Positions 5,909 to 39,117 of a stretch of 64,000 nucleotides of DNA are shown piece after piece. The position numbers and the translations under genes are program-made. Every line of letters begins with the position of its first letter. The stretch's first letter is position 1. The stretch spans positions 124,001-188,000 of the forward strand of contig JAGWMJ010000007.1 of the NCBI GenBank assembly GCA_028871815.1, in the 5' to 3' direction. This DNA is from Armatimonadota bacterium. GTDB lineage: Bacteria; Armatimonadota; Chthonomonadetes; Chthonomonadales; Chthonomonadaceae. Under the pieces are notes generated by a model. That model was given only the letters and a program-made list of their open reading frames with translations, was not told the DNA's origin and did not search any database.

Positions 5909-6678
5909 GGCGTGGTGGGCGGCGCGGCGGACGGTCGGTACCGGGTGATACGAATGCGGACGAGCGTTTTCAGCATTCGAATGGCATCTCGGAAGAAGCG
6001 AACCTTTGAGCCTTCCTGGTGCGCCCAGCGCACCGGTACCTCGCGAATGTGAATGCCGAAGACCTGGCGCGCCACGTACAACAGTTCCACATCAAAGGCG
6101 AACGAATCGACCCGGCAAAGTCCGAATACCTGATGCGCCACGGCGCGAGGAAACAGTTTGAAGCCGCATTGCGTATCGTGTATGCCCGGCACGGCCACGA
6201 CGCGCACGATACGATTGAAAAGCTTGCCGCCGAATTCACGCAGCGGAGATTGGTGGCGAAGGAGCTGGGAGCCGGCCATATCGCGCGACCCGATCGCGAT
6301 CTCCATCGGTGTGGTAAGCGCGGCTTCGAGCTTCTCTACCTCTTCAATTGGCGTAGCAAGATCCGCATCGCTGAACAACACCAGGTCGCCAACCGCTCGG
6401 AGCACGCCGTACCGCACCGCAAAGCCCTTTCCGCGATTCGCGTGGTATGAGAGCAGATGGAACGCAGGATGCGCTGCTCCAAACTGCCGTGTGACTTCGG
6501 CGGTGCTGTCGCTGCTGCCGTCATCCACCACCAGCACCTCAAATGCTACGCCTCGCGCGTTGAGGTACTGATCGACGCGCTGGAGCGTCGCCAGAATGCG
6601 GTCAGCCTCGTTATAGGCGGGAATCACCACGGAGAGCGCCGGCGGTGGGTCCGGATTCTGCTGCATATCGGTGCTCAC
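5905..6678 (-). CDS. Family 2 glycosyltransferase, dolichyl-phosphate beta-glucosyltransferase-like
   Basis: This 257-aa GT2 enzyme (GT-A fold) opens with LSVVIPAYNEADRI and continues with VVDDGSSD and the DxD-bearing FSDADLATP. GIHDTQCGFKLFPR is characteristic of ALG5/DPG-synthase relatives, which transfer glucose or a related sugar from a nucleotide donor to a polyprenyl phosphate. No C-terminal membrane helices are visible, so it should be cytoplasmic or peripheral. The following methyltransferase is translationally coupled. ATG 6678 was chosen because it gives a normal short N-terminus. The exact sugar is not deducible. Confidence 0.85.
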   Translation of the reverse strand: MSTDMQQNPDPPPALSVVIPAYNEADRILATLQRVDQYLNARGVAFEVLVVDDGSSDSTAEVTRQFGAAHPAFHLLSYHANRGKGFAVRYGVLRAVGDLVLFSDADLATPIEEVEKLEAALTTPMEIAIGSRDMAGSQLLRHQSPLREFGGKLFNRIVRVVAVPGIHDTQCGFKLFPRAVAHQVFGLCRVDSFAFDVELLYVARQVFGIHIREVPVRWAHQEGSKVRFFRDAIRMLKTLVRIRITRYRPSAAPPTTP

Positions 6679-35864: not shown

Positions 35865-36521
35865 TCAGTCGGCAGCTGCGGCATCCATAATCTGTTTGAC
35901 AAGTGTATACCGAGTCCGCGGTTCAACGTTGAGTTTGGTCATAACGCGCTCGGTGGCATGCCGAACCGCTCCGGTAGAAACAGGCGCTTCCATCTCTGCG
36001 GTGAGCACCTCCGCGATCGCGTCGGTGCCTAATTCGCTGCCGACCAGTTTGCGAGCTACCGCAAGCTCGAGAGCCGAGAGCCCCATCCTTCGGCCCAACC
36101 TTACCATAGTGCGATCCGGTTCCGCCAGGTTTGCCTCAAGGCGCAACGCCACTATCTCGGCTGCGGCACGCCTCACTGCTTCGGTAACATCACTCGGGCT
36201 GCAGTTTTTGGGTAGCGCATCTACGGCGCCGGCGGCCCGCGCCACGGAGAGCAGGTGCGTATGTGAAGTCAGAAGGATGATCGCGGTTTCTGGCCGTGCC
36301 CGCAGAATAGCCGCGCACGCCTCAGTTCCATTCACCAGAGGCATAGAGAGGTCCATGAGGACGACGTCCGGCGCTAAACTCTCTGCCAATGAGATGGCTT
36401 CGCTGCCATCCATCGCCTCGCCGCACACAACCATGTCGGGCTCGGCGTTGATGTGCGCCGCCAACATCTGGCGCAGCAGATCGAAGTCATCGGCAATGAG
36501 AACGCGTAACGGTTCCGGCAT
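35865..36521 (-). CDS. Response regulator with LuxR/NarL-like output
   Basis: The 218-aa protein has an N-terminal receiver (about 1-125): LRVLIADDFDLLRQML with the acidic pair, DVVLMDLSM with the phospho-acceptor Asp at about 56, IILLTSH with the Thr/Ser, and VDALPKNCSP with the Lys. The output half (about 150-215, LSALELAVARKLVGSELGTD then HATERVMTKLNVEPRTRYTLV) is a divergent LuxR-type HTH. ATG 36521 has AAAGGAA upstream; a frame running to 36611 overlaps the previous gene and is not needed. No kinase is adjacent. It is the third gene of the ParA/DUF499-like operon. Confidence 0.82.
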   Translation of the reverse strand: MPEPLRVLIADDFDLLRQMLAAHINAEPDMVVCGEAMDGSEAISLAESLAPDVVLMDLSMPLVNGTEACAAILRARPETAIILLTSHTHLLSVARAAGAVDALPKNCSPSDVTEAVRRAAAEIVALRLEANLAEPDRTMVRLGRRMGLSALELAVARKLVGSELGTDAIAEVLTAEMEAPVSTGAVRHATERVMTKLNVEPRTRYTLVKQIMDAAAAD

Positions 36522-36585
36522 GCGCGTTCCTTTCGTTGTGCGAAAAGGGGACCGTGCAGATCGTGCCGCCACGCCCACAGCTGGG

Positions 36586-37809
36586 CTAGGTGGCGGGATT
36601 CTCCTTCTCAAACTCTGCCATGACGAACCCTAGCGAACGGCAACGCTCGCCCACACTCTTCACCAGGCCCGGCGAGGCGCCCTCGCGAAATCGCGCATTC
36701 ACGTGGAGACGCACCCTTACGGCTGCACCAGGCGCCGCGCCAAGATGCTGCAGTACCTCCGAGCGAATGCGGCCAAAATCGCGTATGAACGCTGCCGCGG
36801 TGCCATCCCAAACCGCGTGGAACTGTACCGGCCCACGCGCGTCGATATCGGCGAGATTCGGAAGCGCTTCGGTTCGGCCCGCCAAACCGTGGGGGATTGC
36901 GTCGTTCAACGTCCGGCTGGACTGGAGGCGTGGCAGGTAGAGATACGTTGCGAAGCAGCCGGGCAACTGCGCAATGGGAACCGGCGAGCCCAACCAACCC
37001 GTCAACCGGTCATATTCGTCGCGCAGCACGGTCGGCGGCAGCTCCAAGAGCAGAAGATCCTCGGCACACAAACGCGCGGAACATCGGCTGGCGATTCCAT
37101 CTCCGGCTTCCAGCGCCAGCTCGCGCCATTGAATCGGAGCCGCAGGATCGGCCTGTGTTGGAACCAGGAGCCATTTCCACGCCTCGCCGATCTGTCGATT
37201 CACAACGGCATCAGCATCGTCGGCCTGTGCGCGAGCGTGGGCAAGCTGAATCGCATCCAGGCTCAGGGCAGCGCCCTCATGCGCGATGGATCGCCACGCC
37301 AGAAGCGCGCGTATCGACTCGTACAGCGACTTCACCTTGCGTGAATCGGGCGCAAGAAAAACGAGGGTGTTGCGGTACCGGCGCGGACCGCTGCCGCGAA
37401 AGTTGAGAAAGCTGTCGCTGATGTGCAGTGCCGGATCGGAAGCTGCATCCGGCGTTTCGTGAGGATGGTGCGGGCTAAGAATGACCAACGACGTAGCCAG
37501 CGTATCGGGAACGTCGGCAGTAAACGCCGGTGCCACGTGAATGGCGCTAAAACAGCCGGTATCTCGCGATGACAACAGCAGTCGTTTGCGCGTTTCGGCG
37601 AGCAGCATGGCGTCGCGGACTGCCTCTGCGCGTTCGGCAGCGAGGTGGAGCACCACCTTCAGCGGACCGTCATCAGACTGCGGATCATCGGCGGAACGTA
37701 CCGTCCGCGCCTCAGAAAAGATGCTTCTCAGCGGGTCGCCGGAGCCTTCGCCGTCACCAGGTTCCGGATTAATCCAATCGGGCGGCGGACCCAGCGGCTT
37801 TTTACGCAT
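36586..37809 (-). CDS. Stand-alone DUF499 C-terminal-like protein
   Basis: This 407-aa protein matches, from memory, only the second half of DUF499 ATPases, which are normally about 1000 aa with an N-terminal P-loop domain. Recognisable blocks in order are FSAIHVAPAFTADVPD, RRYRNTLVFLAPDSRKVKSL, LLAWRSI, EAWKWLLVPTQ, FATYLYLPRL, and a final region VRVRLHVNARFREGASPGLV then CRSLGFVMAEFEKE. No Walker A is present. The N-terminal 45 residues are Pro/Asp/Glu-rich and look like a genuine start. ATG 37809 lies 8 bp inside the ParA gene's end, so the two are coupled. DUF499 proteins are known in putative antiphage islands. The function here is unknown. Confidence 0.65.
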   Translation of the reverse strand: MRKKPLGPPPDWINPEPGDGEGSGDPLRSIFSEARTVRSADDPQSDDGPLKVVLHLAAERAEAVRDAMLLAETRKRLLLSSRDTGCFSAIHVAPAFTADVPDTLATSLVILSPHHPHETPDAASDPALHISDSFLNFRGSGPRRYRNTLVFLAPDSRKVKSLYESIRALLAWRSIAHEGAALSLDAIQLAHARAQADDADAVVNRQIGEAWKWLLVPTQADPAAPIQWRELALEAGDGIASRCSARLCAEDLLLLELPPTVLRDEYDRLTGWLGSPVPIAQLPGCFATYLYLPRLQSSRTLNDAIPHGLAGRTEALPNLADIDARGPVQFHAVWDGTAAAFIRDFGRIRSEVLQHLGAAPGAAVRVRLHVNARFREGASPGLVKSVGERCRSLGFVMAEFEKENPAT

Positions 37810-38779
37810 CCAGTATCTCCTTCACCAACGCCTCGTAATCCTGTGTCGCCGGGTTATTGGGGAACAGGGCCGGCAGTGGCTGCCGGTACATCTGCGCTCG
37901 GCTCACGTCCACCGCCTTTCGTATAACGGTATGGTAGACGCGCGACCCGTAGTGCCTCCAGAGTTGATCCAGCACGTCGTCGCTAAACTGATTCGATTCC
38001 ACGCGGCAAGCCAGGAAGCGATGTGTCGGCTGCTCGGGCAACTGTTCAGCCACGTGCCGTACAATATCCAGGAGCTTGACGGTGCCACGCAGGCTGAATG
38101 CGCCCATATCTACCGGAACAATGACGTCGGTTGAAGCTGCTATGGCATTGCAGGTTATCGCATCCAGGCTCGGCGGACAATCGATGACGACATAGTCGAA
38201 TTCCGGCAGAATCGGCTTCAACGCATTGCGCAGGAGGTTGACCCACCAGGGGCGACCCGTCACCTGAAGTGTGGTATCTGCCAGCTCCAGGTTACTGCCT
38301 ACGATGTAGAGCGACGGTGGCAACGGCAGCGCGGAGGTCTCGGGACCGGATGCGGTACCCATATTCGCTACGGGCTGCATCACTTCCTGAATCGGCATGC
38401 CCTTGACCAGGATTTCGTAGAGCGTCTTCTCCAGTTTGTCGCTGTCGATGCCATAAACCTGCGTGAGGTGAGCTTGCGGATCGGCATCGATCATCAGCGT
38501 GGGACCACGCTCAGCCAGGAGCCATGCCAGAGTGGATGCCGTGGTCGTTTTGCCCACTCCGCCCTTATGGTTGCAAACCGAAAAAATGCGAGGCGCCCCG
38601 CGTACGGCCGGCTCTGGCGTACCAACGCGGGCGAACACGCTTTCGAGCTCCGCCCGATCGACGCGGAGACGCCGGCCGCTTGGATAGCTCGTAAGCTGAC
38701 CCTCGCGGATGTAGTTGCGCAAGGTCTGGGCGCTCACATGGACCAGTGCGGCCGCATCGGCCAGGTCCATCAGGTCCAT
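37802..38779 (-). CDS. ParA-family ATPase with N-terminal HTH
   Basis: The 325-aa protein is a fusion. Residues about 1-50 form an excisionase/MerR-type helix-turn-helix (LADAAALVHVSAQTLRNYI, YPSGRRLRVDRAEL). A ParA/Soj ATPase follows, with the deviant Walker A CNHKGGVGKTTTAS, the switch region MIDADPQAHLT and Walker B YVVIDCPPSLD. ParA proteins dimerise on ATP and bind DNA nonspecifically, and the HTH may add a specific site. No parB is nearby. ATG 38779 has GGGAGG at good spacing. It is the first gene of an operon with the DUF499-like protein and response regulator; a positioning or regulatory function is inferred. Confidence 0.88.
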   Translation of the reverse strand: MDLMDLADAAALVHVSAQTLRNYIREGQLTSYPSGRRLRVDRAELESVFARVGTPEPAVRGAPRIFSVCNHKGGVGKTTTASTLAWLLAERGPTLMIDADPQAHLTQVYGIDSDKLEKTLYEILVKGMPIQEVMQPVANMGTASGPETSALPLPPSLYIVGSNLELADTTLQVTGRPWWVNLLRNALKPILPEFDYVVIDCPPSLDAITCNAIAASTDVIVPVDMGAFSLRGTVKLLDIVRHVAEQLPEQPTHRFLACRVESNQFSDDVLDQLWRHYGSRVYHTVIRKAVDVSRAQMYRQPLPALFPNNPATQDYEALVKEILDA

Positions 38780-39117
38780 GAGCAGTACCTCCCTACGGGA
38801 GTGAGTATCATTACAATATGGCCGCAAACGTGGCAGAATGCCCAGAATACCTTGCCACAAGGCGTGCGCGAGGGGTTAGCTTGGAAGTATACAGCGTGGG
38901 CTTCCACCGTGTCAAACGTGGCAACGGGTCGAGACCGCACAGCGGCGAAGGTTTCCGGCGAAGAAACGAGCAGATTCTCCCGGAACGCTGTAACAGGCAA
39001 ATGCCTTGACAGCCTGAACGAATTAGTGGATACTTGTCCACTAGTACGTTGTGTTCATCGGTTATCGCATCGAGCCGGCAAACCAATGGACCGTGACCGT
39101 TCAACAAGGAGAAGACG
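38780..39117. other. Divergent intergenic region between ParA and VOC genes
   Basis: 338 bp with no supported gene. A frame at 38818-39009 is Arg/Gly-rich and lacks signals. The right end holds the VOC promoter and operator, and the left end holds the ParA ribosome-binding site. Confidence 0.5.
39006..39043 (+). promoter_or_regulatory. VOC gene promoter with operator over the -10
   Basis: TTGACA (39006-39011), 17 bp, GATACT (39029-39034). A perfect inverted repeat TAGTGGA-TACTTG-TCCACTA (39024-39043) spans the -10, where a bound repressor would block polymerase. No regulator gene is adjacent. Confidence 0.7.

Follow-up and report, generated by a model that had tools for sequence, protein, structure and literature searches.

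An HTH-ParA ATPase co-encoded with a free-standing DUF499 C-terminal half: a candidate chromosomal positioning pair in Armatimonadota

In a 64,000-nucleotide stretch of an Armatimonadota genome (Chthonomonadaceae; assembly GCA_028871815.1, contig JAGWMJ010000007.1, positions 124,001 to 188,000; hereafter, the window), a gene for a ParA ATPase with an HTH domain overlaps the gene of a 407-aa protein that corresponds to the second half of DUF499 (HmaC) ATPases. The DUF499 half sits in the slot where plasmid versions of this ParA encode their DNA-anchoring partner. We consider it probable that the two proteins form a chromosomal ParA-type positioning or partition pair, in which the RHH-like centromere-binding partner has been replaced by a DUF499-derived nucleic-acid-binding module. 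A fuller account, in which ParA acquired a recognition module derived from defence as the partner that binds cargo or DNA, with the plasmid centromere-binding protein replaced and the ParA-contact tail kept, giving a chromosomal positioning system of an undescribed kind, is in our judgement evenly poised between right and wrong.

Table 1. Features of the pair and its surroundings, with positions in the window.
Feature	Position	Strand	Remarks
HTH-ParA, 325 aa	37802-38779	-	Excisionase/MerR-type HTH (residues 3-50) and deviant Walker A ATPase (KGGVGKTTT)
Free-standing DUF499/HmaC C-terminal half, 407 aa	36586-37809	-	Proposed ParA partner/adaptor; AF2 mean pLDDT 87
Overlap of parA 3' end and DUF499-C start, 8 bp	37802-37809	-	
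Response regulator, 218 aa	35865-36521	-	64 bp downstream of the DUF499-C gene; not conserved with the pair
N-terminal tail, residues 1-47 of the 407-aa protein	37669-37809	-	LGPPPxWI and DPLxxIFxxxRTxR; low pLDDT; candidate ParA-contact segment
Bi-helical connector and alpha+beta domain, residues 48-232	37114-37668	-	Model secondary structure fits the description in PMC12839542
Winged-helix region, residues 233-312	36874-37113	-	From the model; domain naming after PMC12839542
RRM/ferredoxin-like C-terminal part, residues 326-407	36589-36834	-	Sequence homology to full-length DUF499
Promoter-like TTGACA-18-TATACT upstream of parA	38886-38915	-	
Direct repeat CAAACGTGGCA, copy 1	38825-38835	no strand	Candidate operator/anchor site
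Direct repeat CAAACGTGGCA, copy 2, overlapping the -35 element	38913-38923	no strand	Candidate operator/anchor site

As the original prediction had it, three open reading frames lie on the minus strand, with the parA and DUF499-C genes overlapping. The domain assignments of the first and third genes were borne out by Pfam: the ParA, described as fused to an excisionase-type HTH, matched HTH_17 (E 1e-8) and AAA_31 (E 3e-39), and the proposed response regulator matched Response_reg (E 1e-21). The deviant Walker A motif of ParA proteins (KGGxxKT) was present, as KGGVGKTTT or KGGVAKTTT, and the best matches of the ParA in the PDB were ParA/Soj proteins. In the window, the parA promoter is flanked by a perfect 11-bp direct repeat, CAAACGTGGCA. 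A sequence akin to the window promoter, TTTGAC...TATAAT, was found upstream of parA at the two other loci with the pair, L062 and L063; parA is preceded by a similar strong promoter at all three.

The 407-aa protein had been taken for the stand-alone, P-loop-free second half of DUF499 ATPases. This identification holds, although not through the Pfam profile: PF04465 (DUF499) gave no match to the protein at E<=1, and a Pfam scan of it returned no families above cut-off, but the PADLOC profile of HmaC, the DUF499 ATPase of Hma, was matched at E 3.1e-52 (residues 59-311 on profile positions 515-770 of 941). In a search of 291 genomes of the phylum, residues 17-403 could be aligned with the second half of DUF499 proteins of about 1,100 aa, the alignment starting only at about residue 500 of the full-length proteins, and no P-loop/AAA+ domain match was obtained for the 407-aa protein. 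The closest full-length proteins were approximately 35-42% identical to it over residues 17-323, with residues 326-403 also alignable; a segment of ca. 80 aa that lies ahead of the RRM in full-length DUF499 proteins is missing. A sub-threshold Pfam match to DUF6910 (E 4e-4) was seen at residues 138-244, and DUF6910 may be related to the DUF499 alpha+beta domain.

In the AlphaFold model of the 407-aa protein, residues 50-310 mostly scored above 90 in pLDDT, and residues 1-47 were poorly ordered. The elements follow one another as two connector helices, strands, two long helices (residues 156-177 and 186-210), two strands, a helical winged-helix region, and a C-terminal part of two helices. According to the published account, DUF499/BrxC proteins consist of AAA+, wHTH, alpha+beta, wHTH, further wHTH, and RRM domains (PMC12839542). 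The order of elements in the model fits this account, and the 407-aa protein therefore appears to be the connector, alpha+beta, wHTH, and RRM-like part alone. Searches of the PDB and of viral models turned up no convincing structural counterpart, either of the full model or of residues 233-407; a new fold is not thereby proven. By sequence, residues 326-407 are homologous to the C-terminal region that has been published under the name RRM; a structure search covering them gave no match.

Among the three stand-alone proteins known from the window genome and its relatives, no conserved stretches are longer than the two tail motifs listed in Table 1. These motifs lie beyond the DUF499 homology or just at its border, and are absent from full-length proteins. 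Similar tails are found in the small partners of plasmid-type ParAs (e.g. RRKPLIEPGSFL...DILSRIIERDR). The stand-alone tails were not separated from background by a profile HMM of the plasmid tails (not significant), and a two-block score, whose blocks were picked after both tail sets had been viewed, was equalled by 1, 6, and 2 of 551 background N-termini for the three stand-alone tails, respectively. The resemblance to plasmid partner tails is thus suggestive, a lead and not proof. Partners of ParA/MinD proteins contact their ATPase via a charged, disordered N-terminus (PMC10241942). The stand-alone tails start with MRKK or MNRRK, have low pLDDT, and are net acidic overall except for the first residues; their likeness to the plasmid tails would fit this rule, though the full-length tail is not basic.

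The ParA/DUF499-C pair, with an identical 8-bp overlap, recurs in G043 and G044, two Chthonomonas MAGs that belong to another genus of the same family. The pair was found in three genomes only, all Armatimonadota, from two genera. A scan of 84,980 genomes with the ParA alignment returned the two Chthonomonas MAGs and, apart from them, only one weak ParA match; its two peptide patterns were strict, and may have overlooked distant copies. Between G043 and G044, dN was 0.10 for ParA and 0.34 for the DUF499 half, while dS was saturated; from the low dN at saturated synonymous sites we conclude that the pair is old and under constraint. Of the three-gene unit that had been envisaged, only this pair was conserved. 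The response regulator is absent beside it in G043 and G044, and the nearest relatives of the regulator (L191 and L185) sit elsewhere, without ParA. The three-gene operon was therefore rejected as a conserved unit. No pair was found in phages or viral contigs, where ParA loci mostly lack the HTH, and a phage or virus origin was likewise rejected. Among the plasmid records listed, matches of the DUF499 part were mostly genes annotated as full-length-type DUF499/Swt1-HEPN; a few were annotated as hypothetical or not annotated, and inspection of one of these revealed nothing.

Type Ia SopA and P1 ParA are the classical HTH-ParAs. The ParAs next closest to those of the pair (35-43% identity) also bear an HTH, and are encoded on contigs of 11-40 kb. 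In these plasmid-type loci, the next gene overlaps parA by 1-14 bp (8 bp, as in the window, in L035, L036, and L042, and also in the plasmid-type pair L182) and encodes a protein of 150-230 aa with a basic start and a C-terminal stretch that we call RHH-like on the strength of its pattern, the best RHH match being Antitox_RHH at E 0.2. A PDB search with these partners gave no match. Replication-initiation proteins are encoded further downstream in several of the loci, and a complete Chlorohelix plasmid of 54,957 bp has a like arrangement with an 8-bp overlap. The module of HTH-ParA, small RHH-like partner, and replication initiator, seen on Armatimonadota contigs and the Chlorohelix plasmid (L035-L042, L044, and L182), possibly represents a little-described plasmid family.

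In a ParA tree that took in eight RHH-partner loci, all HTH-ParAs formed one group (100/100), apart from Soj-type ParAs. Within it, the three DUF499-partnered ParAs formed one clade (100/100), which grouped with L035, L036, L040, and L041 (98/98). The three stand-alone DUF499 halves also formed one clade in their own tree (97/92), to be read with caution in view of long branches. The small-partner profile (A5) had no match in the window genome, G043, or G044, where the DUF499 half is found in the partner slot instead. The simplest history has a DUF499 half taking the place of the RHH-like partner once.

The plasmid-type origin of the ParA clade, together with the 11-bp repeats upstream of parA, would also suit a genuine partition system, one belonging to an integrated element or a former plasmid, whose replicon it would stabilise through binding of the DUF499 half to a centromere-like site close to parA. 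We regard this as unlikely. No replication gene or integrase was found near the pair, and the repeats were seen in the window only, none being present upstream of parA in the two relatives. Two of the pair-bearing contigs, of 219 and 290 kb, carry ordinary metabolic genes, and the gene order around the pair is kept between two species: flanking genes common to G043 and G044 encode a Gfo/Idh-type oxidoreductase, a malic-enzyme-like protein, and a ferritin-like protein (names read from translations). The surroundings of the pair in these genomes look conserved and chromosomal, and the flanking genes at the window, L062, and L063 resemble those of ordinary metabolism. ParB-type genes are present elsewhere in all three genomes, and the window genome has a separate, ordinary ParAB pair; the HTH-ParA pair is therefore a second system.

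A defence device, with the DUF499 half as a sensor of foreign nucleic acid and ParA in place of the lost AAA+ motor, appears to us more doubtful still. The half does derive from Hma/BREX-related defence ATPases (PMC12839542), and a Hma-type locus is present in the window genome away from the pair. However, no PADLOC match was obtained in the ten flanking genes, ca. 8 kb on each side, and no helicase, methylase, or nuclease was seen next to the pair in the three genomes. No PF04465 proteins were found in G043 and G044. Since two of three genomes lack a full-length DUF499 protein, we conclude that the pair does not need a Hma/BR system. Its surroundings, chromosomal and conserved in two species, are not those of a defence island. 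The defence role raised in the original prediction has no direct support, and the accompanying proposal, that ParA supplies the ATPase function lost from DUF499, was rejected: ParA belongs to another NTPase family, two of the genomes lack any DUF499, and the clade of this ParA is a family of plasmid partition proteins with a small partner of their own, whose slot the DUF499 half now holds. That the two genes are mere neighbours serving separate functions, with the DUF499 half a decaying HmaC remnant, is very improbable, for although the HmaC gene of the window genome bears an in-frame stop and the stand-alone protein lacks ca. 80 aa of its parent, the frames are open in three genomes despite saturated dS, the overlap is identical, the proteins form one clade, and their conserved N-terminal motifs are not found in full-length proteins.

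For the positioning pair, what we infer beyond co-encoding in the partner's slot is the following. ParA-ATP dimers would coat the nucleoid by non-specific binding, and the HTH may repress the promoter of parA itself; HTH-mediated autoregulation is an established property of type Ia ParAs (PMC9178275). With its flexible N-terminal tail, the 407-aa protein would contact ParA and stimulate its ATPase. The cargo bound by the alpha+beta/wHTH/RRM module would be a DNA site, some other nucleic acid, or a protein, and ParA would place or distribute it. DNA is our first guess for the cargo, because the alpha+beta and wHTH regions of BrxC, which the pair has in common with it, contribute to dsDNA binding (PMC13326643); BrxC differs in having AAA+ and coiled-coil parts, and the relatedness is one of architecture, as described in the literature. 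Rather than a split ATPase, the pair resembles a ParA-based positioning system that has borrowed its cargo adaptor, and positioning, one of the roles originally suggested, is the best reading. No paper linking DUF499 to ParA was found in the open-access literature.

The partners of ParA proteins vary widely, and for many ParAs, termed "orphans", the partner is unknown. As in McdAB, ParC/ParP, PpfA, and other orphan ParA positioning systems, the partner of the ParA in the pair is not a ParB, and the genome has a chromosomal ParAB besides; partner and cargo are unrelated as far as is known. Type-I HTH-ParA/small-partner systems share with the pair the HTH and ParA ATPase, the overlapping downstream partner gene, and candidate operator repeats at the promoter; the pair differs in having the C-terminal half of a DUF499 protein as partner, in lacking a replication gene nearby, and in its chromosomal-looking setting. 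If our reading is correct, the pair represents a new class of ParA partner whose origin can be traced to an exchange of partners on a plasmid-type ParA. It would also present a part of DUF499/BREX-related proteins thought to recognise nucleic acid in isolation from its motor, so that its target could be studied with a 407-aa protein.

DUF499/HmaC of Hma, that is, of type-1 BREX-related (BR) systems, has the alpha+beta, wHTH, and RRM-like regions in common with the 407-aa protein, whereas the pair has no AAA+ domain in its DUF499 part, no ca. 80-aa segment, and no methylase or helicase partners; no Hma/BR operon with N6-methylase and helicase was seen around the pair in the window, L062, or L063. 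The single full-length PF04465/HmaC gene of the window genome (L064:7336-10692; G000:C4:175335-178691) contains its in-frame TAG after approximately codon 474, which may reflect a pseudogene, a sequencing error, or a mixed population. Near the Hma-type locus, a stretch beginning ADPARELAYRLYSICERKKRSADGQRYNALVSSWPAL... seems to be repeated (L064:3845-4129 and 5928-6533), as if the end of a gene had been duplicated.
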